Shown here: positions 2,031 through 24,726 of the stretch, in pieces
Numbering within the stretch: the first letter of the stretch is position 1
How the letters are laid out: each line of letters starts with the position of its first letter
Virus record (IMG/VR): IMGVR_UViG_3300027797_000131
Coordinates: 1-24,726 of that record
DNA from: a virus
DNA: 24,726 nt
Reading direction: 5' to 3' (one strand)
Translations under genes and position numbers: made by a program
The notes under the pieces: model-generated
What the model was told of the DNA's origin: nothing
The model's database searches: none
Seen by the model: only the letters and a program-made list of their open reading frames with translations

Positions 2031-2951
2031 CTATAGTGTTATGGTTTTGTTATTAATTGCATTTATTATTTGCTCTTTAGTCATTTCGGCAGGGTCTTTA
2101 ACTCCTTCCGAAACGCTTGCTACCGAGATTTGTTTGCCTCGGCACATCTCTATCATAGCACACCCCATTGCTATACCTGCATCATCATTGTCACAAAATA
2201 AAGTTATTTTATCAAAGAATTTCCTAATCATTTGACCTTGATTCTTAGATACAGCAGCACCTAAAGTTGCCACAACATTAGGGTATCCAGCTTGATGCAC
2301 AAACATAGCATCAATACTACCCTCTACTATAATGACAGATTCATGATGCTTAGCGTTATTGATATTAAACAACTCGTCAGCACGCTTAAAGCCTTTATTA
2401 TACAAATACCTCGGTTGTTGTGATGAATCAATCGCTCTACCGATTAGCCCACTCACACGATAATTATATGACCTAACTGGTATTACCACTCTATTCTTTT
2501 CATAAGAAAATCCAACTTCAAAGTGCTGAAGTGTTTCTACAGTCAGACCTCTTTCAAGCATCGTTGCCAGTAGGTTAATATCTTTTTCATAATCTATTGC
2601 AAGATTATCTATTGATAGCTCAGTATCCTCCTCAACTGGATTAAGATACTTGTTTAAATCCCGATCCATCTTGAACTTATCAAACTCTACATGCTTACTG
2701 TAAACCTTGCCTGTTAAGTTAAAATACAGTTGCCTAAAGTTACCTTTCTTACCACAGGAAGGGTTAAAGCACTGCCATAGACCAGTTTTTGCATTGATGT
2801 ACATAGCAGCACTATGAGTGTTCTTATGGAAAGGACAGTAGACATTTAATTCTTCACTACTGGCGCTCTGAATCGCCACATTGTAAGTATTAAATAATGA
2901 TAAAATATCCTCTTCTAGCGAGCTAGATAAGAAGTTTGAATTTGTAGACAT
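2031..2951 (-). CDS. DnaG-type DNA primase (CHC2 zinc finger plus TOPRIM)
   Basis: A 306-residue primase. The N-terminal zinc-binding domain has Cys39 and His42 (YCPFH) and Cys61 and Cys66 (WQCFNPSCGKKGN), the CHC2 arrangement that recognises the template. The TOPRIM catalytic core follows: VEGSIDAM with Glu210 and Asp214, then CDNDDAG with Asp254, Asp256 and Asp257 for metal binding. At 306 residues it is about half of a full bacterial DnaG and lacks the C-terminal helicase-binding domain, as in many phage primases. It would make RNA primers at the phage fork with the DnaB-like helicase encoded just upstream. The ATG at 2951 lies inside the end of the preceding small gene (29-base overlap), with AAGG a few bases upstream; translation is probably coupled. 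The stop codon overlaps the ribosome binding site of the SSB-like gene. Confidence 0.92.
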   Translation of the reverse strand: MSTNSNFLSSSLEEDILSLFNTYNVAIQSASSEELNVYCPFHKNTHSAAMYINAKTGLWQCFNPSCGKKGNFRQLYFNLTGKVYSKHVEFDKFKMDRDLNKYLNPVEEDTELSIDNLAIDYEKDINLLATMLERGLTVETLQHFEVGFSYEKNRVVIPVRSYNYRVSGLIGRAIDSSQQPRYLYNKGFKRADELFNINNAKHHESVIIVEGSIDAMFVHQAGYPNVVATLGAAVSKNQGQMIRKFFDKITLFCDNDDAGIAMGCAMIEMCRGKQISVASVSEGVKDPAEMTKEQIINAINNKTITL

Positions 2952-3138
2952 CTCTACCTTGAATGTAATCTGTTCTTAGGAATGTTTTGTCAAAGTTACC
3001 ATAGATATCTCTAGCCTCATCTTCCATCCACGGTCTCAGTCTGTTCAGTGTTTCTATATCAACAACTTCTCCTCTTACAATAACCTTTTTGCCTAAATGT
3101 CCCACTCTTCTACCCACTTTCCTGTTTCTAGGTTCCAT
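2923..3138 (-). CDS. Small unknown protein between helicase and primase
   Basis: A basic 71-residue protein, not recognised. The C-terminal two thirds (KVIVRGEVVDIETLNRLRPWMEDEARDIYG in part, then FLRTDYIQGRDVYKF) reads like a small folded domain with a helix rich in acidic and basic residues. The reading frame overlaps the 3' end of the helicase gene by 46 bases if the ATG at 3138 is used and the primase start by 29 bases. In-frame GTG codons at 3117 and 3105 would reduce the first overlap to 25 or 13 bases; the GTG at 3105 gives MGHLGKKVIVRG and is a realistic alternative start. Its wedge position in the replication operon suggests a helicase or primase partner, but this is only inference. 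It could still be a non-coding overlap frame, though it fills an otherwise uncovered gap (2952-3092). Confidence 0.65.
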   Translation of the reverse strand: MEPRNRKVGRRVGHLGKKVIVRGEVVDIETLNRLRPWMEDEARDIYGNFDKTFLRTDYIQGRDVYKFKLLI

Positions 3139-4307
3139 CGCAAATAAAAACCAAAGTGCGATGCTCTTCTTACTTTTCTTGATACAACTTGAAATAGATC
3201 AGAGGACAAATCTCTATGTATTGCAAGAACAAGATCTGCGTCATAAGCCAATTGCTTGCTCCATGCTACTTCTTCAAGCTCTGGTGGTCTCTCAGAGTGT
3301 CCATCTGCCATTGTAACTGCTGCAACATCTATGATAGGCAGTCCATTCTTGACAGCGATCCTCTTGAAAGCTTTAGAAAGGTTCTTTGCTTTTTCAGTTT
3401 CATTCTTAGCACCGCTTGAATCATCAAAAAGGCTGTGATAGTCAAGAATTACCATATCGGGGTGATACTGATCAATCTTAGCCTGCACCATGTTTTGATC
3501 TGCCGAGTCAAGACCTTCAGATGTAACCAAGTGGATAGCGTGTTTACCTTCAAATGTAGCCTCTGCCCATTTTTCATATGAATCAACAATGTCAGGGTTT
3601 GCTTTTACAAGATCGGTATTAGTGAAGTGACCTTCACCATTGTTAAGCAAAGTATCTAACCTCTGCCCCTCTTGTTGCTTATTCATCTCCAATGAGATAA
3701 TAAGTGGTCTATAGCCAGCCTTCCATGCATTAACTGCAAACAGTCTTGCAATGAACGACTTGCCAACACCAGTCCAACCGAGCAGAACAATAAAGTCTCC
3801 AGATTGCCAACCCCCGAATACTTTATCAATAACATCAATACCGCTAGGGATTCCAGCAATAGCTTTAGGGTTTAATGATCGTGCTCGTAGACTTTCTACA
3901 CGGTCTTTCCACTCGCCAGCAAGATCTGTATCTTTAAGGTTTGAAGAGAACTTATATAGCTTAGATGACTCTTCCATTAAGAAAGATATTGCATCCTTAG
4001 GACCAGCCTCATTGATTAGATTATGAGCCTTAGCAACAATACCTCTAGCTTGGTACGCCAACGACTCCCTCTTAGCCTCATCAATATAATACTTAATAGG
4101 CTCTGGAGTAATAATAAACTCAAAGTCCTGGTGATGTTGCTTGATTGTTTCCTTTGACGGTACTTTGCTATGTGTTTCGTAGTGAGAAACTATAAAATTC
4201 CAAACATCACGGTATTCAAGAAATACATTCTCAACACCACCATTCACCGCCCCAACATAATCTTGAGTATCAACAATTGAATTCAGAAGTCTAACTTCGT
4301 AGTTCAT
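3093..4307 (-). CDS. Replicative DNA helicase, DnaB-like (RecA-fold)
   Basis: A 404-residue helicase. Residues 1 to about 120 look like the helical DnaB N-terminal domain. The C-terminal RecA-type ATPase begins near residue 150 with IPSGIDVIDKVFGGW, typical of DnaB H1 regions, then Walker A GWTGVGKS (177-184), the catalytic-glutamate motif ISLEM (Glu207), Walker B MVILDYHSLFD (Asp289) and later a basic stretch (SRKVRRASHFGF, near 376-387) in the place of the arginine-finger and DNA-loop region. It is somewhat shorter than bacterial DnaB (about 450-470 residues). It would unwind the phage fork and work with the primase encoded downstream. The ATG at 4307 shares its A with the TAA stop of the preceding 100-residue gene (TAATG), so the two are probably translationally coupled. 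The assignment to the DnaB family is firm. Confidence 0.94.
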   Translation of the reverse strand: MNYEVRLLNSIVDTQDYVGAVNGGVENVFLEYRDVWNFIVSHYETHSKVPSKETIKQHHQDFEFIITPEPIKYYIDEAKRESLAYQARGIVAKAHNLINEAGPKDAISFLMEESSKLYKFSSNLKDTDLAGEWKDRVESLRARSLNPKAIAGIPSGIDVIDKVFGGWQSGDFIVLLGWTGVGKSFIARLFAVNAWKAGYRPLIISLEMNKQQEGQRLDTLLNNGEGHFTNTDLVKANPDIVDSYEKWAEATFEGKHAIHLVTSEGLDSADQNMVQAKIDQYHPDMVILDYHSLFDDSSGAKNETEKAKNLSKAFKRIAVKNGLPIIDVAAVTMADGHSERPPELEEVAWSKQLAYDADLVLAIHRDLSSDLFQVVSRKVRRASHFGFYLRWNLETGKWVEEWDI

Positions 4308-4609
4308 TACGACTCCAATCTTTTCTTCGTTTCTTGGACAATGGATTTAAATTTATCATTAGATTTCTTATCAAACTCTGCTTTATCAACAAAATTTCTT
4401 GATTCTATTGCAAAATCAAATATCAAAAACGGACCAGTTCTGTTTTTGATAAAATATTCTATCCCAGTAGAGAGGTTATCTGTTTTATAAAACTTAGATA
4501 ACGCATCCGCTACTGCCTCCTGTCTAGGAGAATCTGGAATAAATAACTTACTGTGCTTTTCGCAACAGCTTTTGAAGAAGTCTATCAGTTCTTGACCAGT
4601 TGTTATCAT
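4307..4609 (-). CDS. Unknown 100-residue protein, coupled to the helicase gene
   Basis: I do not recognise this protein. It starts MITTGQELIDFFKSCCEKH, likely an amphipathic helix with a Cys-Cys pair, continues with mixed helical sequence (PRQEAVADALSKFYK) and ends in a lysine-rich tail (KFKSIVQETKKRLES). The stop codon TAA shares a base with the helicase ATG (TAATG). Such tight linkage to a DnaB-like helicase makes a loader or accessory role possible, because phages with their own helicase often encode a small loader next to it; no loader motif is visible, so this remains a guess. The ATG at 4609 lies 62 bases inside the end of the WhiB-like gene, an unusually long overlap; no later ATG exists in the N-terminal half, and the N-terminal helix looks genuine. 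Confidence 0.75.
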   Translation of the reverse strand: MITTGQELIDFFKSCCEKHSKLFIPDSPRQEAVADALSKFYKTDNLSTGIEYFIKNRTGPFLIFDFAIESRNFVDKAEFDKKSNDKFKSIVQETKKRLES

Positions 4610-4838
4610 TTTCTTTTTTTGCTTTCTTCCATGTTTCTAATAAAATATCATACTCGGAGAAACCGCCATTTACGCCATAAGCAGGATTTGATTCCCACAT
4701 ATTTAATAGACATTCTTTTCTTACTGTACAGGATTTGCAAACATTTTTGGCATACTGAACATCGCTGTACTTATAGGAAAACCAATATTCACCATTGGCA
4801 TCTATTGCGCAAAGGGCTAGGTCTCGCCAAGATGTCAA
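4548..4838 (-). CDS. WhiB-like iron-sulfur transcription regulator
   Basis: A 96-residue Wbl protein. Four cysteines, Cys10, Cys34, Cys37 and Cys43, are arranged C-x23-C-x2-C-x5-C, the ligand set for the 4Fe-4S cluster of WhiB proteins. The turn that in the family usually reads GVWGG is present as GVNGG (55-59), followed by FSEYDI in the normal place, and then a lysine-rich C-terminus (KKAKKEN) fit for DNA binding. Wbl proteins bind region 4 of the primary sigma factor and redirect host RNA polymerase; phage Wbl proteins (for example TM4 WhiB) can repress host whiB genes. Either role is possible here. The start appears to be the TTG at 4838, immediately after the TAA of the upstream gene and in the same frame, with no clear Shine-Dalgarno, so re-initiation is likely. 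The 3' end overlaps the next gene by 62 bases. The family strongly implies an actinobacterial host. Confidence 0.92.
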   Translation of the reverse strand: MTSWRDLALCAIDANGEYWFSYKYSDVQYAKNVCKSCTVRKECLLNMWESNPAYGVNGGFSEYDILLETWKKAKKENDNNWSRTDRLLQKLLRKAQ

Positions 4839-5047: not shown

Positions 5048-5482
5048 TTATCTCTTTCCTAGTTTTATTTTTTGGGATATTCTAATTATTCTTGCTTGTG
5101 CTTGCCCAGTAGTAACTGGTCTTCCTGGAGTTCTTCCACTGAAGAATGTTACCATATCATAGACATCTTGTCTTTCATAGTAGCGCCAACTTTTGTAACT
5201 TTCACAAGTTTGGCTGAATTTTTTTCCACTTGGTATTAATTCTCGCTTTTCATACTTACGAATAGTATCAGGTCTTTTTTCAACAATCTTAGCTACTTCA
5301 CCAATAGTATAAATCCTGTGCATAATCAACTCAGCACCCTCATACGGCATGATGATTTCCTCTTTTGTCGTTAAATCAATAACATAGATTTTATTAAGAT
5401 TTTTTGTTATCTTTTTAACTTTTACAATTGTATCGGAATACTTGTAAAATTTATTTAGGATTATTTTCGTCTGCAAATTCAT
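5048..5482 (-). CDS. MerR-like helix-turn-helix DNA-binding protein
   Basis: A basic 144-residue protein. Residues 56-103 (RIYTIGEVAKIVEKRPDTIRKYE, in part, then the tyrosine- and arginine-rich WRYYERQDVYDM) form a winged helix-turn-helix of the MerR/excisionase type: a first helix GEVAKIV, a recognition helix PDTIRKYEKR and the typical RYY-x-x-DV wing end. Residues 1-50 look like a small all-beta N-terminal domain, and the C-terminus is basic (GRTPGRP, then RIIRISQKIKLGKR). There is no visible effector domain of classic MerR activators. It may be a transcription regulator of the phage switch or an architectural protein. A terminase small subunit is less likely given distance from packaging genes. 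AGAGGA lies six bases before the ATG, and the first 32 bases overlap the end of the zinc-ribbon gene. Confidence 0.82.
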   Translation of the reverse strand: MNLQTKIILNKFYKYSDTIVKVKKITKNLNKIYVIDLTTKEEIIMPYEGAELIMHRIYTIGEVAKIVEKRPDTIRKYEKRELIPSGKKFSQTCESYKSWRYYERQDVYDMVTFFSGRTPGRPVTTGQAQARIIRISQKIKLGKR

Positions 5483-6896: not shown

Positions 6897-7301
6897 CTAT
6901 ATTTTTTTTATTTTACTTTCCCTAGTAATTTTATTGCGTTCTTTCATATTTTCACGCATTTTTTGACGATGTTTCTCCGTTGGCTTTTTCCCTTCCCTAT
7001 GGATAGCACTATGTTCTGGAACAGTACACAGGTACAAATTAGCAACTCTATTGTCAACTTTTATTTCATTAATATGATGAACCGTTTCCCACGGCTCCAA
7101 GAATCTACCGAGATAGACTTCCATAACCGCCCTGTGTTCATAGACATAACCCTTAATGTTAAAAGGGTGATCTTGATTTAGAATACGAATATATCCCTTA
7201 TCATCTATATATTTTCCACCACCGTAGTTGGGGTTGTGCTCGCCACTTGTTGATCTAATTGACCATTCAATGTCCTGCCTTTGTGAAGCTAGGTTAGGCA
7301 A
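6897..7301 (-). CDS. HNH endonuclease (homing-type)
   Basis: A 134-residue protein with an HNH nuclease core: YEHRAVM (His56), VHHINEIKVDNRVANL (His75, His76, Asn78, Asn84, Asn88) and HSAIHR (His97, His101), the pattern of the HNH_3 group often seen as free-standing phage homing endonucleases. The N-terminus carries GEHNPNYGGGKYIDDKGYIRI, a substrate-binding strand region commonly preceding this nuclease, and the C-terminus is very basic (EKHRQKMRENMKERNK), probably binding DNA. It should nick or cut DNA at a specific site and could spread between related phages. The start is the TTG at 7301, with GGAGGA eight bases upstream inside the last codons of the tail gene. It is inserted exactly between the tail module and the replication module, the usual setting for a mobile intergenic endonuclease. 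Confidence 0.9.
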   Translation of the reverse strand: MPNLASQRQDIEWSIRSTSGEHNPNYGGGKYIDDKGYIRILNQDHPFNIKGYVYEHRAVMEVYLGRFLEPWETVHHINEIKVDNRVANLYLCTVPEHSAIHREGKKPTEKHRQKMRENMKERNKITRESKIKKI

Positions 7302-14528: not shown

Positions 14529-14923
14529 TACGCTTCCACCAGAGACAAGGATATGTCATAGTAAGAACATTTTGAAGATGGATCTCTTCTTACAAGAGAT
14601 TCAGAATATGAATCTATAAAGCAATTATATTCGGTATAACCTTCACCTGGAGATAATTCAATCCCGACCAAAACAGAAGATGTTGCATTAACCAAGCTAT
14701 TTAGAAAAGCCCTACCACCCCTGCTGTCCACGGTATGTGCTGCCAAGTCTGGGAGCCAAGTCCACGATATATTAAACTTTTGTTTATTATTTGAATAATA
14801 CCTTCTTCTATGACCGCTTGCCAGATCTATATCGTTAGCAGAAATTTCTTCATCAATCTTTATTGTTCTGCCGTGCTCAGTTACCTCTGTTCCATTAATA
14901 GAGAGAAGCTTGTATAGATACAT
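14528..14923 (-). CDS. Small tail protein, paralogue of the next gene's C-terminal domain
   Basis: A 131-residue protein placed directly after the tape measure gene, the usual position of the distal tail protein or a tail-tip adaptor. It starts MYLYKLLSINGTEVTEHGRT, has a RRRYY-x(5)-F-x-ISWTWLPD block (39-60), a conserved HTVDSRGGRAFL block (63-74) and ends with a strand pair (YNCFIDSYSESLVRRD, then YYDISLSLVEA). The same blocks recur in residues 222-355 of the following gene product, so the two arose by duplication; this one lacks the repeat arm. An adaptor ring or tail-tip protein is plausible, but no named family is certain. The ATG at 14923 shares a base with the tape measure stop (TAATG) and has GGGGGA four bases upstream, a good ribosome binding site. 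Confidence 0.8.
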   Translation of the reverse strand: MYLYKLLSINGTEVTEHGRTIKIDEEISANDIDLASGHRRRYYSNNKQKFNISWTWLPDLAAHTVDSRGGRAFLNSLVNATSSVLVGIELSPGEGYTEYNCFIDSYSESLVRRDPSSKCSYYDISLSLVEA

Positions 14924-17900
14924 TAGTTCCCCCTGTTTAATCCGCTGTAAGTACTAATCACTCTGCTCTCAAGACCCGCCGCTTTTTGATTTCGGGGAAG
15001 AACTGTTGTGTTATAATCTTTCATCATTGAGTTAAACCACTCAGGCTCACCAATGAAGTTATCTACATAGATGTTTACATTCTGTGTAGATGTTGACATT
15101 CCGCCAGCGAGACTGCCACTGAAGGATGATTGTGGGACAGAGAAACCTGGTTGAGGAACATTGAATCTCATTTGATTCATTGCTTCAATGTGCGCCAAGC
15201 CGTACTTCTTTACAGCACCAGCGTTAAGAACATACTCTCCACCATGAAGAATAGAAGGAACTTCTCCACCTTCTTTAAATTTGAGGTATCCGCCTTTCTT
15301 GAATTTTGGCATATAGCCGCCATTAGAAAATCTGTCAGGACCAGTATACTCAATATTAGTGCGAATACTGTTGAATAAGTCTGTCCTTGCAAGCAGTCGG
15401 GTGATATCGTTATCACTAAGACCTTGCATCATATACTTGCTTAAGTATTGACCAATTCCAATATCATCTCCACGCTTTAAGCCAGAAATTATCTGTGTTG
15501 GGCTCCCAAAATGAGGACCAGATCCTACATTCATATTTCTTGCCATTTGATAAGTAAACTGATTGGTTCCCATATCGCTTCCATGATCCCCACCTTTAAA
15601 TATGTGTTTAAAGTAGGAACTATCAATTTTTGATGGGTTCATCATTTGCGCAAGTGATTCTTTAACAGCGCCATATGTTGAAACAGGTTTTTCATGTAAT
15701 TGATAAGTACCCTTTGGAAATACAAGACCTCTACCTGGAGCTGGAGTTAGCACTGTGTCAACGGGGTATAGAGAACTCAATGATCCTGGGTTTGCTTTCA
15801 TAGCATCCATGAAATTTGCTACAAGCAAGAAAGGTTCTTTGACACTTTCCCTCTGCTGATGTCCCATCACTGGGTGGTTGAGAGCAAAGTGTACTGTGTC
15901 TCGGACATACTCCATTGGGTATCCATCATTAGGGAATAGCGTTTGATAATCAGATGTTGGTCTAATAACAGCATTGCCAAATTGATCAATAAATGGTTTG
16001 TATGGCGTTTCATGAACTAAGAATAAATCTTCAGGTGTGAAGTCGGATAAACCAACATCTTTGATTGACTTTTGATACATTAATAGATCATTTCCAGTTG
16101 GTGCAGGGTTATATGACAGTCTAAACTTATCAACCTGCTCTTTACCAATATCAGCAAGTCTCTGCATCTCCATTCTTGCTTTCAAATCACCCTTGCTTCT
16201 TGCATACAATAAAGCGCTAACAAATGTATCTTTATTATCAATTGCTGGGTTTTCAAATTTATAACCAACATGAGCATTCGCCCAAAGACTAGCTACTCCA
16301 CGACCAACTTCTGTAAACTCACTCTCCCCACTAATATCATATGGATTAAGTGGAATATTTTTTACCAGTTTATCATTAAGCCAATCTAAACCTGGGTATT
16401 CGTTTGAAGGCATGGTTGAGCCATATTGATTTGCCGTTTCATAAAGATTAGTAAATGGATTTCTTGACCTGTTTACACCAAATGAAACTTCTTCTAAACC
16501 AATCTTCCATGCATCAAATGATTGAGTAAGGGCATCATCCCCAATCTGCATTGTGCGACTAAGAATTTCCCTTGGGATTCTACTTCCTTCCATTATTGAA
16601 GGAATCGCTAGAGATCCACCTTTCGTTCCCATCCCTAGTGCTTTAGGAGCAAGAGCCATTTGGTCTCTTAATGCATTTGCAGTAGCCAGTGCTTCATTAA
16701 ACCGTGAACGCAGAAGTTCACCACTGATAAGTGGCTGATTCCCTATTGGCAAATGCATAAAAGGAAATTCTTCCATCATATTTCCAGTTTTTGGTCTGTA
16801 ACCAAGCGCCTCAGTTACTTTACTACGAATATCAGGTGGTATTACACCTTCACTATCTCTTAAAAGATCTTGTATTTGTTTACCAATATCCTGCTGCAGG
16901 AACTGATAATCAAAAACCTCTCCAGAGGCTGGAATTATTCTTGGATCTATGTTTTTAGGCGTAAAAGCTGCGGAGGCGGCTCTGTTAAGAGCATCAAAGA
17001 TTCCAGTTAGCTCCCCAAAAGCCTCAGGGTCTACGCCAGAAACACCTCTTGCATTATCTCCAAGACCAAGAAGATTATCCAACATCATGTTATAGAAAGC
17101 TAAATCTTCTGGAGACTGCATTGCTTTAGGTATTGCCCCACTGACTTGCAATTGCGCTCTAAGCATTTCTCGTCTAGTTATTGTAGGAAGGTTTTGTGTT
17201 GCACCAGATGCAAGTCCATCCAACTCATCAAAAAGCTCAAGAATTGTTTTATCAAACGCTCCACCTTCGCCATGTGTGAAAGCAGAGTTTCTTCCTATTA
17301 ATCTAGGAGCAAATCCATCGCCAAAGAAATCTTCAACAGCAACTTTAGGAATTTGAGATGGAGCAGGTGGAAGTGCTAATCTTGGTCTTACTATTTGTGT
17401 ATCAATTATATTTGCAGGGTTTAATATTGTAGAATCAAATCCCTGAAGTGCACCTCTCCCCGCTAGCGCAGCTGCTTCTCGTGTCAAAGCATTATTCACA
17501 ACAGCCATAACTCCTGGCTTCATTATTTGACCAAGAGTCATTTCTGTCGCAGAAAGACCCATTCTCCCTACTACCAGTTTTCCAATAGTTGGGGTAAGCT
17601 TGAATCCTTGTCCTAGTCCAGGGATTGAAGTTATAACATTAAATGCATCACCAAAATTTGTAAGTTTACCACCAGCAATTTGTCCGAGCCCGCCAGTTTC
17701 CCCGCCAGGAAGATTGAGACCAGTAATTCTATTAATTCCACGAATATAATTGATACCATTATCTATTTGATCTTGATTTCTCTTTTGTAGATTCGTAATT
17801 GGATTAAAACTTAATCTTTTATCAACTAATGCAAGTGGGGATTCAACAAGCGCTGAAGCAATATTAAGTCCACCACTGCCAATTTTGGCAAACGATTGAG

Positions 17901-20900
17901 TAGTATCTGTTATCGCTTTACTTAAGAAACCACCAACTTTACCAAACACACCCTGCTTTGTTGGCTTAACAACTGGCGGCATTGGTCCAATGAACTTCGG
18001 AGATGCACTCGCCCTCTCCATTGCATCTGCGCTTCCGTACTTTCTTACACTACCGCCAAGCGCCAAACCTTGTGCTTTTAATCTGTTATATGTACTAAGG
18101 TCAGAAAGTTTTGGAAAATCAACTCTGCCTAATCTAACTCCTTCAAACCCGTCAAGATACTTTGGAGCACGACCCCATGCGGATGGGTCTGATGCCAACC
18201 CCTTATACATAATCTCTGCTACTTTAATTTGATTTTCAAAAGATGGAGGGTTTAAAGGATCATTAAAATTACCAAACTTACCTTGACCAAATCGCATCCA
18301 GTTTGCTCTTGCAATATTGAGAGCACCAACGAAAACCCCCTTATCTGTTTTGCTAACTTTACCTAAACTCTTTTCCCAATTTTGACCGTTCTCAGAAACA
18401 GCAATTGCCTGCCAATCCAATGGGTGTAGAATCATTCCACTGTTAGCACCCGACCTTACATTAGTGTCTGGAACATAATAAGATTGACCGTTTTTGTTAG
18501 TGAACAGCTTCATTCCATTGTTAGTTTGATTAGAATCACTTTGTTTTGGCTTATTACCTACATTCCTTCTTACTGCACCGCCCTTTGCAAAACCAGGGAT
18601 TGTCATGTATCCACCGTTTGCAAATCCAGGGACTGTCATATAACCACCAGAAGCAAAACCTCTGAAATCACCGCCGTTCTTTAAATTATTAATTCTTTCT
18701 AAATTACCTTTTCCAAATTTCTCAACGGCTTTATGATTAATGATATATTCGCCACCATGCAGCAATGCTGGAATTCCTTGCGATGCGGGGGCTTTAAGAT
18801 ATCCACCAATACCGTATCTACCAACTTGACCACCATACATAAAACCAGTTCTGCCCTCGGAGTCAGTTCTGTAAGCGTAAGCGTTAGGGTTTGCGGTTAA
18901 AGCAAGAGCCCCAGATGCAATATTTAAAGCAGGTAGTGCCAACTTTAAAATTGCTATTTCTGTAGCACTCAAACCAGAATCTGCCCTTGCTGCAGATGAA
19001 AGTATTCCAACGGAGCCTTCTGAAATATGAGCACCAATAAACTCTGTTACTCTGGTTGCCATTATTCCCAGCTGTGCTGGAGGAATATAAGCCTTACCAG
19101 CACCATACTTTTTTGCAGCCGTAAGCGTTGTCGCTTGAAAATCTTTCATGGTTGCTTCATCTAAAATAGTAGTTGGCGCAGCAGTTTGACCGCCAACATT
19201 TGCCAACGCATTTTGAGCGGCTACAGCTAGATCTACGACTTTTTTAATCTTTGGCTTCAAACCATCAAACAAGTCATCAAAGCTCTTAAATATTTTCTCC
19301 CAAGCAATAGTTCTATTGAGTTCTGATTCCAAAGCTTCAAAAGCATCTTTACCAGCTTTTGTCCAAATATCTTTAATATTATTTGGATCACCAGGTTTAG
19401 ACAAAGATGAGGTAATCAAAGTAATTGCATCAACAGCTGGTTTTACATATAGTGGAGCAAATGTTGTACTGAACGCATCCTTAAAGCCTTGCTCTACTCC
19501 AGACACCATTAAACCAACTGCTCCGAGCAAAGACTTCGGATCTTTTGATTTTGTATTTACTCCAAAAGATATTGCTGCTTCATTAATTAAATCACCCATT
19601 GAAGCAGAGAACATTGCAAGAGCAGGATCTCTTACCGCTGCAATAGCCGCAGGAAGTTTTGCAAGACCAGTTTCAAATGCAGTACCTAATTCCAGGGAGG
19701 AAGAAAGTGCTTTATCCGCAACACCTTTCAAAGCCGCAGCAAATTCTTCTTGTGTTGCAAAAGACTTATTCTTAACTCCCTTCATGAATTCATCAAAAGA
19801 CTTAAGAATTACATCAAACTCTTCCTCTGCCAAATCCTTTTGATTAGCAATTGCTTGCTTAGCAAGATCTCTCTGAGCGGATTGAAGCGTCTTTAACCTG
19901 TCACTATCAAGATCAGTAAGTGATTTATCAGATTCAGTTTTTGATGCTACTTCCTCTCTGTCAAGTCTTCTAACATCAAAAGTCCTTCCCTCATACACCG
20001 CCAGTTTTCTTTCAACAGAATAATTTTCATGATCATACTGTCGCTTGTCAATGATCTCTCGTTTTTTAGATTCATAATCTTTTGTATCTGTAAGTCTTTC
20101 TTCAGCTGCAGCCAATTCGTCAATAGCAGTAATCTGATCATCGTATGCTTTAAGTTGTTGGTCTTTTTGTTTCTCAAGAGCATCTGTGTATTGAGTTACA
20201 ATATCATCAAATTTTTCATCAACATTGCTATAGAAAGCACCCTTAAGTGTATCTTTTATTTCAGCAACTTTTGATTTCATTCCATTATTAATTTGATCCA
20301 TCAACGATTCGCCACCTGCAGTTGCAGCGTCCGCTGATTCTTTGACTATATAGGCAATCTGGTCAATCACGCCTTTTGGTGATCCTTTGTCTATAACAAT
20401 TGGTACATTTATTCCGTTAACTTTTATGTTTGTTGCACCTAATACCTCAACATATCTCCTATCTAATTCGGCTAGTATTTTGTCATATGCACCACCAACA
20501 CCAACCCCTGCGCTTTTAATGAGATCCCTTAGCTTTGCATCCCATTTCTTAATATTCTTCTCAGCTTCCGTTGGTGGCTTTATAGGGGTTTCTGAAACAT
20601 ATTTTCGCAGCCCTGGATCAACACCTTCAAGAGCTTTCTCTTTTTGTGACTTTTTCTCGTAAGACTGAGCAAAAGTCACTCCTGCATCAGAGACTCCAAA
20701 TAAATCATCCAACTTCAAAACACCCCGAAGCAATGGAGAAGTATTTATGACACCCTTGAGTATGCCGTTCGTAGTGCCTTCAGCTATGTTTTCCCCTATT
20801 TCTTTCATAGCAGCCCATATCATTTCTCCCAATAACTGCAAGAGACCCTGCATCACTTGAATAATTACAGGAGCTGCATAAGCAAATGCATTGATTAAAC

Positions 20901-23900
20901 CAACTGTAATAATTTTAAGAATGCCAACAATATCGTATGCAAAGCTAACCATCACTGCTTTCAATTTAGCCATACCCGCAGTTTTGTCACCGTTGGAGAA
21001 ATCTTTAATTGCACTGCCCAGCAAAATAAATTTGTTAATAATTCTTGTAATCTGAGGGACAACTGTGTTCTTAACAAATGCAGCACCAATTGTTTCAGCC
21101 CATTCCTTAAATGCCGTTGTAGCTTTCTTAATAGCATTAGCTATTATTGTAAAGAAGGCTGCATTCTTTTGACCTTCACTGGTCAATCCACCCATTTGTT
21201 TATCAGCCCCAATAAAGACAAAGATTAAATCTCTTACTGGAGCAAACAATGCTTTTGCGCCATCAACTAATGCTTTGAATGCTTCCTTGAGCGCCGTGGC
21301 TGCTCCCGCTAGTCTTCCGTTTGCTGATTTGAACATTCCATACAGTGCAATAAGGATTCCAATAATTGGCACTATGATCAACAAACCTGTACCAACTAGA
21401 AGGATAGCACCAGCTAATTTAGAGAAAATATTTAATCCAACCGTAGCCGCCTTTTGAATACCACCGAATACATTTGATGTTATTTGCCCAGCTCCAGCGG
21501 CAACACCCTTGAGCATTGATCCAGATTGTGCAAAGATAGTTGCAGTACCAGCAAATACTTGCTTCAACCCACCAAAATTCTTTAACACTTTTGTCAATGG
21601 ACCAATAAGAACAGACAAACCACCAGACAGAGCAAACAGCCAAGTTTTACCAAGCGCCCCAGTTAAGAGTTTCTTCAATCTTGTAAAGTTTGGCAAAACA
21701 CCTTTTGTCAAAAGCCTGTCTATATCTGCAAGGTCCTGCTTGATCGGCAATCCAATTGGAATCCTGCCAAACGGAAGAAGTGATCTTTTCCTTGTAGCAG
21801 AACTCAAAAGTGTTTTTTCAGTTCCATCTTCTAATTTCTCAGTAACATATTCAGGAATTATATTCCTCTTCTTCATTTGCTTACCAAAGAGAGATTCAAT
21901 TACACTCTTCTCAGCACCCGCTGCAAACTGTCCCTTCAAAGCTTTGTTACCAAACAAAGCTTTTGAAATTGCACTTTGCTTAAGTGCAACCGAGGCGGCA
22001 GTCACTGCTGCGGCACCCTCGGTAAGTGCTGCACCTGCTGTCTGTCCTCCTGTTGCAACTGCTGTCGCACCCGCAACATGACCCGCCATTAAATCATCAA
22101 AATTCGGAATAATATCTTTTAAGTTCGCATCAAAGATATTTTTTGAAAAGATGTTTGGTCCTTGGAACCTATGACCAATCTTATCAATATTGAAACTCTT
22201 TCCATCACCGCCATCATCCCCGATAGGGATGCCTCTGCTTCTTCTTTTACGCACTATTCTTGGTGTCTTCTCTTCTTCATTTTCAGGTGGTGGTAGTGTT
22301 GGTTTTCCAGCACCCGTTGTTTTATTTGCTGGAATTACTTTAGGAGCCTTAGCTGCCTCAGACAAAAGCCTTGCAGTTTCTTGTTCAATCAATAAAGATT
22401 GATTTATATATTTTTCTAAATCTGCAAGTTCTTTTTTAAACAATTCCAGCCTATTCTTTTTTGCAGCAACACCTGAAAGATTGTTTATTCCTGTTGATCC
22501 CTTACTAGGATGTGCAATCTGAGCTGCAGCAAAAGCTTCAGCATATTCTTTCTCCGCCATTACAACTGATTCTGAAATTTGCTTAATCTTCAATGGAGCA
22601 TTTAATTTTATCTTTTTCAAATCTGTAGTTTTAAGGATTTCACCTGCCCTGATTGTTGAAGAATCAATTTCCTTAAATGCAGTAGCTAATTCTTTAGCAG
22701 CCCTGTCTAATGCTTTTTGCGCTTTTTTGGTAATTGGTTTTCCTGCCTTTTTGCCAACTGGTTTTACCGTTACTGTTTCAACTATATCTGCAGGATCTAG
22801 CACTGATGGATCAAATGCATCAAGTGCAGAGTTGGCAACATCTTGCATTTGCTCTTGTGCCTGCACAAGTGGGCGGACAAGTTCTCCCTTAAGATCGTCC
22901 ATATTAGGGACATCAATATCCTTTACATCACCAGTTATTACCTTTACACCCTCATCCAAAGAACTAGCTACATCTTGCTGGAACTGATCAATTGGATCAA
23001 CGATGGATGCTACCATTTGGGCTGCTACATCAGGAACAACAATGTTCTTCTGATCAATCAAGCCCTGGACTTTATTGGCTAATTGGGTACGAAGATCAGT
23101 TAATTCTTGATTAACATCCCCAACCGCTTGTGTAATTGCCTTCTTAGCCCTTCCTGTCCTTTCAGAAAATCGTCTTCTACTTGCTCTTGCACCATCTCTT
23201 GTATCTCGCTGCCTTCCCTGTCCTGGCTGCAGAATATCTTCTTGAAGCCTAAGACCAGTAGGGACGGAAGACCTTGCCTCTTCACCACTTGCTAAACCAA
23301 CATAATTAGATTTCATTCCGTCTACGAATACATCTTTCAGATTCTGAGCTAAACCTGCTTCTGTTCTTGGGTCTAACTCTAGCTTAGGTCCTTTTGGTCT
23401 TGCCCCAAAAAACTTTTGATAAACGCCTTCAACGACTGTTTTCCCATCTTCTCCTGGCACCCCACCCAAGTTCTTGCGCAATCTTTCAACAAAAGAACGA
23501 AGAGAGCGTTTTGTATGGGCTTTTGAATTAGGACCAGCCATTCCTGCTGCGGTTTGGCTCCTAAATGTTGCAGTAATATCTTTTATTGTTGCCTGCATCA
23601 CTTTATTAACTGCGTCATCTGGTAGTTCAACAAGATGATCAAAGAATGCCCGAGTAGCATCTGCAGCCGCCTTATGCCCCGTCTTTGGGTGTCTAGCAAT
23701 TGTATTCATGGCAGTCATTAATTTATCAATGTCATGTCCTGCTCCCGTGAGCACTTCGCCAAGTTCTTTACGAAGACCCTCTGCAAACTTCTCAACAATG
23801 TTAACCCCCCTCATTGGCACAGCAGCAGCGCCTACAGATTTAGGCGTTCTAAATAATCCTCCTAAATCAAGATGCCCAGCATCTGAAATACCTGCGGATT

Positions 23901-24726
23901 TATTTCGTCCAAACAAACCTTTAATCCGACCAAGAATGCTTTGCTTTGCATCAGGTATAGCAGGGGCGGTAGGAGTAGCAAACGATGTTCGTATTGGATA
24001 ATCTTTAAGTCTGAAAGGTTTCCCGTAGAAATCGGTTACAGATGGTATTCTTGCTTGATCAAATTTCGGTCCAAGGAAACGAGAAGTTGTTTGAGGATAT
24101 GCAGATGGGGGAACAACTGGTTTTACAATTGGCTTCGGGTATACAGGGGTGTATGGGCTATACTGAGGAACAACTGATTTGCCCATCATGTCAATTCTTC
24201 CTGGTGTTTCACCAATGGCTACGGCAGGTCCACGAGCCCTCTCCGATGCCATAGCTGCTGCATTTCTCTTAGCTACTCTTTCAGCCCTTGATAGTTCTTC
24301 TTCAAATATTACCCCTGAAGTGTCAACAGGGGCATTCATTGCAGCAATTCTATCTTGTAATGTTAATATGTCAGCAGTTGGACGATTTGGTGGTATGTAC
24401 CCAGCTTTCTTAATTTTACGATTAAGTTCTTTTCTTTCTTTAATTAATGTTTTCTCTGCATCACTCAAATCAGTGCTTGGCAAAATTTCGTTTAATTTAG
24501 TTTCTGCATCATGTATTTGGCTGTCAAATGACGCTGGAGATGCATCCAGTCTTGACCTAGCATCGGATATAATTCTTCTGTTATCTTCAATTTCTCTTTC
24601 TATATACTTAAGCTCTTCGGCGTGCATTTTTCTGATTTCTGCTACTTTTTCCAAACCTCGTTTTTCAAGTTTTTGTTTTGCACTAGGAGTAGAAGCGGCT
24701 TCCATTTCTTCTGTTAAAATTTTGTT
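14923..24726 (-). CDS. Giant tape measure protein with Rpf-like muralytic domain (5' end probably outside window)
   Basis: At least 3,260 residues from the ATG at 24705, but the frame stays open to the window edge and that ATG has no good ribosome site, so the true start is probably upstream. Numbering below is from that ATG. Residues 1-130 are coiled coil; 1020-1040, 1097-1125 and 1255-1290 are hydrophobic and may be membrane-spanning during DNA entry; 1497-1640 are a long charged coiled coil. HGGEY motifs typical of tape measures occur at 1983 and 3154. Residues 2095-2182 resemble the Rpf transglycosylase-like fold (WQAIAVSENGQNW with Glu2105 in the catalytic place, then NWMRFG, QIKVAEIM and AWG). 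About 1,000 residues follow this domain, including an unrecognised block at 2885-3010 with VHFALNHPVMGH. The protein sets tail length and probably helps penetrate the cell wall. The length suggests a tail of several hundred nanometres by the usual rule of about 0.15 nm per residue. Confidence 0.93.
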   Translation of the reverse strand, partial: NKILTEEMEAASTPSAKQKLEKRGLEKVAEIRKMHAEELKYIEREIEDNRRIISDARSRLDASPASFDSQIHDAETKLNEILPSTDLSDAEKTLIKERKELNRKIKKAGYIPPNRPTADILTLQDRIAAMNAPVDTSGVIFEEELSRAERVAKRNAAAMASERARGPAVAIGETPGRIDMMGKSVVPQYSPYTPVYPKPIVKPVVPPSAYPQTTSRFLGPKFDQARIPSVTDFYGKPFRLKDYPIRTSFATPTAPAIPDAKQSILGRIKGLFGRNKSAGISDAGHLDLGGLFRTPKSVGAAAVPMRGVNIVEKFAEGLRKELGEVLTGAGHDIDKLMTAMNTIARHPKTGHKAAADATRAFFDHLVELPDDAVNKVMQATIKDITATFRSQTAAGMAGPNSKAHTKRSLRSFVERLRKNLGGVPGEDGKTVVEGVYQKFFGARPKGPKLELDPRTEAGLAQNLKDVFVDGMKSNYVGLASGEEARSSVPTGLRLQEDILQPGQGRQRDTRDGARASRRRFSERTGRAKKAITQAVGDVNQELTDLRTQLANKVQGLIDQKNIVVPDVAAQMVASIVDPIDQFQQDVASSLDEGVKVITGDVKDIDVPNMDDLKGELVRPLVQAQEQMQDVANSALDAFDPSVLDPADIVETVTVKPVGKKAGKPITKKAQKALDRAAKELATAFKEIDSSTIRAGEILKTTDLKKIKLNAPLKIKQISESVVMAEKEYAEAFAAAQIAHPSKGSTGINNLSGVAAKKNRLELFKKELADLEKYINQSLLIEQETARLLSEAAKAPKVIPANKTTGAGKPTLPPPENEEEKTPRIVRKRRSRGIPIGDDGGDGKSFNIDKIGHRFQGPNIFSKNIFDANLKDIIPNFDDLMAGHVAGATAVATGGQTAGAALTEGAAAVTAASVALKQSAISKALFGNKALKGQFAAGAEKSVIESLFGKQMKKRNIIPEYVTEKLEDGTEKTLLSSATRKRSLLPFGRIPIGLPIKQDLADIDRLLTKGVLPNFTRLKKLLTGALGKTWLFALSGGLSVLIGPLTKVLKNFGGLKQVFAGTATIFAQSGSMLKGVAAGAGQITSNVFGGIQKAATVGLNIFSKLAGAILLVGTGLLIIVPIIGILIALYGMFKSANGRLAGAATALKEAFKALVDGAKALFAPVRDLIFVFIGADKQMGGLTSEGQKNAAFFTIIANAIKKATTAFKEWAETIGAAFVKNTVVPQITRIINKFILLGSAIKDFSNGDKTAGMAKLKAVMVSFAYDIVGILKIITVGLINAFAYAAPVIIQVMQGLLQLLGEMIWAAMKEIGENIAEGTTNGILKGVINTSPLLRGVLKLDDLFGVSDAGVTFAQSYEKKSQKEKALEGVDPGLRKYVSETPIKPPTEAEKNIKKWDAKLRDLIKSAGVGVGGAYDKILAELDRRYVEVLGATNIKVNGINVPIVIDKGSPKGVIDQIAYIVKESADAATAGGESLMDQINNGMKSKVAEIKDTLKGAFYSNVDEKFDDIVTQYTDALEKQKDQQLKAYDDQITAIDELAAAEERLTDTKDYESKKREIIDKRQYDHENYSVERKLAVYEGRTFDVRRLDREEVASKTESDKSLTDLDSDRLKTLQSAQRDLAKQAIANQKDLAEEEFDVILKSFDEFMKGVKNKSFATQEEFAAALKGVADKALSSSLELGTAFETGLAKLPAAIAAVRDPALAMFSASMGDLINEAAISFGVNTKSKDPKSLLGAVGLMVSGVEQGFKDAFSTTFAPLYVKPAVDAITLITSSLSKPGDPNNIKDIWTKAGKDAFEALESELNRTIAWEKIFKSFDDLFDGLKPKIKKVVDLAVAAQNALANVGGQTAAPTTILDEATMKDFQATTLTAAKKYGAGKAYIPPAQLGIMATRVTEFIGAHISEGSVGILSSAARADSGLSATEIAILKLALPALNIASGALALTANPNAYAYRTDSEGRTGFMYGGQVGRYGIGGYLKAPASQGIPALLHGGEYIINHKAVEKFGKGNLERINNLKNGGDFRGFASGGYMTVPGFANGGYMTIPGFAKGGAVRRNVGNKPKQSDSNQTNNGMKLFTNKNGQSYYVPDTNVRSGANSGMILHPLDWQAIAVSENGQNWEKSLGKVSKTDKGVFVGALNIARANWMRFGQGKFGNFNDPLNPPSFENQIKVAEIMYKGLASDPSAWGRAPKYLDGFEGVRLGRVDFPKLSDLSTYNRLKAQGLALGGSVRKYGSADAMERASASPKFIGPMPPVVKPTKQGVFGKVGGFLSKAITDTTQSFAKIGSGGLNIASALVESPLALVDKRLSFNPITNLQKRNQDQIDNGINYIRGINRITGLNLPGGETGGLGQIAGGKLTNFGDAFNVITSIPGLGQGFKLTPTIGKLVVGRMGLSATEMTLGQIMKPGVMAVVNNALTREAAALAGRGALQGFDSTILNPANIIDTQIVRPRLALPPAPSQIPKVAVEDFFGDGFAPRLIGRNSAFTHGEGGAFDKTILELFDELDGLASGATQNLPTITRREMLRAQLQVSGAIPKAMQSPEDLAFYNMMLDNLLGLGDNARGVSGVDPEAFGELTGIFDALNRAASAAFTPKNIDPRIIPASGEVFDYQFLQQDIGKQIQDLLRDSEGVIPPDIRSKVTEALGYRPKTGNMMEEFPFMHLPIGNQPLISGELLRSRFNEALATANALRDQMALAPKALGMGTKGGSLAIPSIMEGSRIPREILSRTMQIGDDALTQSFDAWKIGLEEVSFGVNRSRNPFTNLYETANQYGSTMPSNEYPGLDWLNDKLVKNIPLNPYDISGESEFTEVGRGVASLWANAHVGYKFENPAIDNKDTFVSALLYARSKGDLKARMEMQRLADIGKEQVDKFRLSYNPAPTGNDLLMYQKSIKDVGLSDFTPEDLFLVHETPYKPFIDQFGNAVIRPTSDYQTLFPNDGYPMEYVRDTVHFALNHPVMGHQQRESVKEPFLLVANFMDAMKANPGSLSSLYPVDTVLTPAPGRGLVFPKGTYQLHEKPVSTYGAVKESLAQMMNPSKIDSSYFKHIFKGGDHGSDMGTNQFTYQMARNMNVGSGPHFGSPTQIISGLKRGDDIGIGQYLSKYMMQGLSDNDITRLLARTDLFNSIRTNIEYTGPDRFSNGGYMPKFKKGGYLKFKEGGEVPSILHGGEYVLNAGAVKKYGLAHIEAMNQMRFNVPQPGFSVPQSSFSGSLAGGMSTSTQNVNIYVDNFIGEPEWFNSMMKDYNTTVLPRNQKAAGLESRVISTYSGLNRGN
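18580..18650 (-). repeat. Tandem GYMT-PGFA-GG coding repeats in the tape measure gene
   Basis: Two adjacent units of 33 bases encode GGYMTVPGFAN and GGYMTIPGFAK, preceded by a partial GFASGG copy. Related glycine blocks (FSNGGYMPKFKKGGYLKFKEGG) occur near the C-terminus at about 15270-15340. Such short glycine-hinge repeats are common in tape measure proteins and may act as flexible linkers next to the HGGEY motif. Confidence 0.7.

Follow-up and report, generated by a model that had tools for sequence, protein, structure and literature searches.

A divergent, cysteine-free Rpf-type domain within the tape measure protein of an uncultured phage, predicted to cut peptidoglycan

Our analysis indicates that the tape measure protein (TMP) encoded in a 24,726-nt stretch of uncultured phage DNA (hereafter referred to as the window) contains, with high probability, a divergent Rpf domain that lacks cysteines and has a lysozyme-like fold (residues 2097-2182). 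This domain is predicted to be most likely an active cutter of glycan strands that uses Glu2105 as its catalytic acid and aids DNA entry. We base this on computed homology, a predicted fold, a conserved glutamate, purifying selection, the position of the domain within the TMP, and an actinobacterial marker gene. Against it stand a window sequence that scores below the Pfam cut-off, the loss of both Rpf cysteines, and the change of the Rpf motif GGLQF to GALNI.

Results

The tape measure gene

The largest gene of the window is a long open frame with two hydrophobic stretches detected by a Kyte-Doolittle scan:

24705..14923, minus strand: open reading frame of 3,260 codons (3,260 aa), the TMP
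21349..21405, minus strand: hydrophobic segment ILLVGTGLLIIVPIIGILI, residues 1101-1119 (mean 2.92)
20830..20964, minus strand: hydrophobic region, residues 1248-1292

Homology, gene order, and the hydrophobic segments identify the product as a siphophage TMP. The window protein itself gave no TMP-family match; a 1,883-aa homologue (L039), which aligns with its residues 1066-2009 and 3129-3259, exceeded the cut-off of PF10145 PhageMin_Tail, a phage minor tail/TMP family (34.1 bits vs 33.2). After the gene, on the same strand, come a 131-aa ORF, a 355-aa ORF, a 1,335-aa protein with matches to minor-tail, LamG, and PA14, and a tail fibre bearing an S74 chaperone domain. No cysteine occurs anywhere in the 3,260 residues of the TMP. 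Elsewhere in the window, an HNH endonuclease ORF (6897-7301) lies between the tail-fibre region and an exonuclease gene.

An Rpf-type domain in the tape measure protein

The domain and its predicted catalytic residue are located as follows:

18160..18417, minus strand: Rpf-type (PF06737) lysozyme-like domain, residues 2097-2182 (profile matches and model)
18391..18393, minus strand: codon of Glu2105, the predicted catalytic acid, equivalent to RpfB Glu292 and RpfC Glu16 by alignment and structural numbering

The segment reads ILHPLDWQAIAVSENGQNWEKSLGKVSKTDKGVFVGALNIARANWMRFGQGKFGNFNDPLNPPSFENQIKVAEIMYKGLASDPSAWGRAPKYLDG. An earlier note on this DNA had reported the landmarks of resuscitation-promoting factors (Rpfs) at residues ~2095-2182, and we found them there in order: D2097-W2098-QA-IA-VS-E2105-NG-Q-N-W2110, then ANWMRFG and ENQIKVAE. 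The ExGxNW motif, with its Glu after a conserved Trp and IA, is thus present (W2098..E2105..W2110), and the Trp that follows the GALNI motif is retained. The note had described one longer loop; we found two, one with residues inserted between NW and GVFVGALNI and one ahead of the last helix. The late AWG that it had also listed is not a conserved landmark, because relatives read TWM and YYR at that place; model confidence there is low (pLDDT < 50 from residue 90).

PF06737 matched a single site in the whole window (E 2.4e-6, 23 bits; cut-off 27) and was the sole Pfam family to match the isolated segment (23.5 bits, likewise below the cut-off), while the same site exceeded the cut-off in three related TMPs (G004, 29.4 bits; G003, 27.3; G002, 27.3). 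When a profile of five phage domains was compared with one of 30 bacterial Rpfs, hhalign (95.7% probability, E 8.6e-9) paired Glu with Glu, Trp with Trp, and QI-x-VAE with QI-x-AE. With ~30% identity to bacterial Rpfs, the domain was rightly called a divergent member. In a phmmer search of PDB sequences with the single domain, RpfC and RpfE appeared at E 0.7, level with unrelated chains, a result that is weak alone. Such modest single-sequence scores are what would favour an ordinary TMP coiled-coil or linker that resembles Rpf by chance. This is extremely improbable, since a model built from the 30 bacterial Rpfs alone gave the window domain 14.6 bits against 8.6 for the best of 2,000 permutations of the same residues, relatives pass the curated cut-off, and the top matches among solved structures have Rpf-like folds (see below).

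A scan of viral contigs with the alignment yielded no loci beyond those from the single-sequence query. Neither an export signal nor a stand-alone secreted form was found; the domain lies inside a TMP, and we therefore refer to an Rpf-type domain and not to an Rpf protein, which is a secreted growth factor. Two loci with very long TMP frames (L071 and L072; 4,712 and 5,075 aa) contain a further Rpf-like half at positions 5184-5327 (WRKESKDW; PF06737, 23.4 bits), which was too divergent to serve as evidence and was set aside.

Predicted fold and catalytic glutamate

AlphaFold2 with a 48-sequence alignment, including 42 bacterial Rpf domains, modelled the window domain with a pLDDT of 75 overall and 85-90 in the core (pTM 0.71). 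A model from five phage sequences alone (pLDDT 46, no Foldseek match) was discarded. Good confidence was reached only after bacterial Rpfs entered the alignment, so the model is not fully independent of homology; an ill-fitting sequence would be expected to stay at low confidence despite their presence. The first Foldseek match was RpfC, at modest strength (E 0.19, probability 0.77), and structural alignment ranked RpfB first (Z 7.1, 2.0 Å, 70 of 80 residues), followed by RpfE (Z 6.6), RpfC (6.4), and invertebrate lysozymes (6.5-6.9), all of them ties, as Z differences below 1 are read as such. Between a lysozyme-like fold and an unrelated helical domain, the outcomes that the earlier note had set against each other, these matches favour the former.

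The tie between the invertebrate lysozymes and RpfB would also suit a generic lytic transglycosylase or an i-type or g-type lysozyme domain in place of Rpf. We consider this very unlikely, given that PF06737 is the only Pfam match, that hhalign links the domain to Rpf, that QIxVAE and ENGxNW are Rpf landmarks, and that the sole PHROGs match is to a transglycosylase family (E 0.007).

Model residue 9 superimposes on RpfB residue 283 and model residue 6 on RpfC residue 4. If the first helix is free of gaps, these offsets place Glu2105 (model residue 18) on RpfB Glu292, which we take to be the catalytic glutamate of that protein, and on RpfC Glu16, in line with the catalytic position that the earlier note had proposed for Glu2105. 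In RpfC, the catalytic role belongs to Glu16 (PMC4648573).

Conservation of the domain and variability of its surroundings

Glu2105 and both flanking Trp residues are invariant in six relatives (L002, L003, L004, L006, L007, and L027), whose domains share 43-94% identity with that of the window. With dN/dS values of 0.12-0.25 for the window against its close relatives L002, L003, and L004/L006, the domain is under purifying selection; for L007 and L027, the ratios were computed from saturated dS. The domain is also retained in L010, L006, and L011, where a neighbouring stretch of ~900 residues is absent.

The domain lies in a variable segment of ~1,100 residues between two copies of a module with the motif GG...IPALLHGGEY(I/V)(I/L)N..AV.K.G, which are about a third identical to each other, and it starts ~115 residues past the first copy:

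18652..18846, minus strand: first HGGEY module, residues 1954-2018, HGGEY at 1983
15376..18018, minus strand: rest of the cargo segment, residues ~2230-3110, absent in L010, L006, and L011
15139..15372, minus strand: second HGGEY module, residues 3112-3189, HGGEY at 3154

Judging from the related loci, of which 67 were found, the Rpf-bearing segment between the modules appears to behave as a cargo region of variable content. Short relatives with complete sequences (L034, L036, L038, L039, L045, and L051; 1,883-1,940 aa) have one HGGEY copy and no interspace, and three copies occur in the available sequence of L025 and L072. In L018 and L026, the flank is 75-78% identical up to ...PGFA(K/N)GG, after which a STVRS...LLPTV...HLGI domain replaces Rpf. 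This second domain (L018 residues 2813-2860, L026 from 2467, L010 from 1413) matched no Pfam family above the cut-off. The idea that the two domains are strict alternatives at one site was rejected, because L010, L006, and L011 have both.

The rest of the cargo segment gave no match in the phage collection. Its residues ~2780-3110 (window 15376-16368; LFLVHETPY...RDTVHFALNHPVMGH...) are common to several TMPs of the group and look like a separate globular domain; residues ~2781-3125 gave zero matches when searched against Pfam alone. In the TMP of L068, a metallopeptidase-like Reprolysin_4 match was seen near residue 3620 (27.4 bits, cut-off 22).

Absence of the cysteine pair

In secreted Rpfs, a disulfide lies next to the active site; replacement of its cysteines is reported to impair muralytic activity (PMC4648573). 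We found both cysteines in all 30 aligned bacterial Rpfs and in 8/8 stand-alone phage Rpfs (Alone3, prophi79-1, BRock, Weasels2, Shagrat, REQ1, Madraxi, and Dorin), which have hydrophobic, leader-like N-termini. In contrast, neither cysteine was present in any of 14 Rpf domains within annotated TMPs of isolate phages (Giles, DrLupo, BigNuz, Phayonce, LilMcDreamy, Pacc40, Fishburne, Saguaro, BirdsNest, Babsiella, Boilgate, CRB2, Troll4, and Alyssamiracle), most of which retain the textbook ESGGNW...GGLQF site. Both are likewise missing from the window domain, L007, L027, and one endolysin. The cysteine pair therefore marks secreted Rpfs and not the domain itself, a contrast that fits proteins made in the cytoplasm versus exported ones. 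As to independent losses of the cysteines, the pattern needs four changes on the tree, at least two of them on starred branches, but a single clade of all cysteine-less domains was not rejected (AU p 0.41), and long branches are involved. The literature searched, with partial coverage, contained no mention of this contrast.

The missing cysteines bear on whether the domain still cuts. Their loss, the degraded GALNI, and the longer loops could mean that a true Rpf fold is kept without catalysis and serves just to bind glycan strands, which would hold the ejected TMP in the wall. We judge this unlikely, as the same cysteine loss is found in the 14 other TMP copies with their largely textbook sites, and Glu2105, which mere binding would not need, is invariant in the six relatives. 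The RpfC pocket is lined by V12, W21, L33, F35, and I58 (PMC4648573), and these positions map to I, W, L, I, and I in the window domain, which also argues against binding alone.

A wider reading, to which we give slightly less than an even chance, is that TMP Rpfs form a disulfide-shedding class and that the HGGEY interspace is an exchangeable cargo bay, holding Rpf, the STVR/LLPTV/HLGI domain, the ~900-residue part, or the metallopeptidase-like part of L068. The disulfide would then have been shed because of the reducing cytoplasm and an unfolded passage through the tail tube before folding in the wall.

Host of the phage

A marker gene for the host lies elsewhere in the window:

4548..4838, minus strand: WhiB-like gene, 96 aa (PF02467 at 4650-4829, E 2.6e-12, 42.3 bits, above the cut-off)

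WhiB was also present in 14 of the 19 other related records searched, all the larger ones carrying one or two, and the same search of 14 control genomes matched Corynebacterium glutamicum only. The closest DnaB helicases among isolates were those of Streptomyces phages (35%). The WhiB gene in the window and its relatives, together with the DnaB similarity, makes an actinobacterial host likely, and the phage probably infects an actinobacterium; the WhiB gene thereby lends independent support to the host proposed in the earlier note. The GC content of the window's phage is 38%, from which a low-GC actinobacterium is a plausible host.

Discussion

Rpf motifs in TMPs have been described since 2003-2006 (PMC1796659, PMC1084345, PMC6392294; also PMC3314691), among them "motif 1" of the mycobacteriophages Barnyard, Giles, CRB2, Saguaro, and Thonko (PMC1796659, PMC6392294). 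We found matches to the Rpf consensus (E <= 1e-3) in 165 of 50,697 phage records, and most of the matches listed are mycobacteriophage TMPs. An Rpf domain in a TMP is thus already known, and the window copy is a new divergent member from an uncultured group. It resembles motif 1 in lying inside an actinobacteriophage TMP, in the Glu of E-x-G...W, and in having no cysteine pair, as in the copies examined. It differs in its two longer loops, its different TMP, and its low-GC (38%) uncultured phage group; it is ~30% identical to bacterial Rpfs, whereas most mycobacteriophage TMP copies are 46-69% identical to the Rpf consensus. What is new is how the cysteines differ between TMP and secreted copies and how the cargo is arranged, which specialists might not expect.

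Other relatives differ more. Secreted RpfB, RpfC, and RpfE share the predicted fold, the catalytic Glu, and most landmarks with the window domain, but are exported and have a conserved disulfide near the active site, whereas the window domain lacks both a signal peptide and cysteines. The TMP transglycosylase (TG) of Cluster D mycobacteriophages and Gordonia phages and the Hammer-type lysin TG likewise have an RpfA-like TG domain (PMC3314691), and Troll4, Alyssamiracle, and the Georgie2 lysin are cysteine-free like the window; this TG is another sub-branch (ESGGNPxI...GLFQI), and its grouping with the window is unsupported (75/16). Motif 3 of the TM4 TMP cuts peptidoglycan and aids DNA injection and infection of stationary cells (PMC1796659). 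It is, like the domain predicted here, a wall-cutting domain in a TMP, but belongs to a separate sequence family (Rv0320/Rv1728c-related) and not to Rpf. Peptidoglycan cutting by TM4 motif 3 is a precedent that supports the proposed role in entry; for Rpf-type (motif 1) TMP domains, the literature searched reported no activity.

We infer the following course of events. The TMP would be made in the cytoplasm and then packed into the tail tube; on firing, it would leave the phage first, and the Rpf-type domain, presumably located at the tail tip, would refold outside the tube and within the wall. There, its muralytic activity would cut the glycan strands of peptidoglycan and open the wall locally, which may allow the hydrophobic segments of the TMP, and then the DNA, to reach the membrane and so benefit DNA entry.

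These findings broaden the range of virion-borne, putatively wall-cutting Rpf-type domains, which now takes in an uncultured, low-GC group of actinobacteriophages besides the mycobacteriophages. If the cysteine-less TMP copies prove active, catalysis does not require the disulfide, and having lost it would be a mark of domains that pass through a tail.
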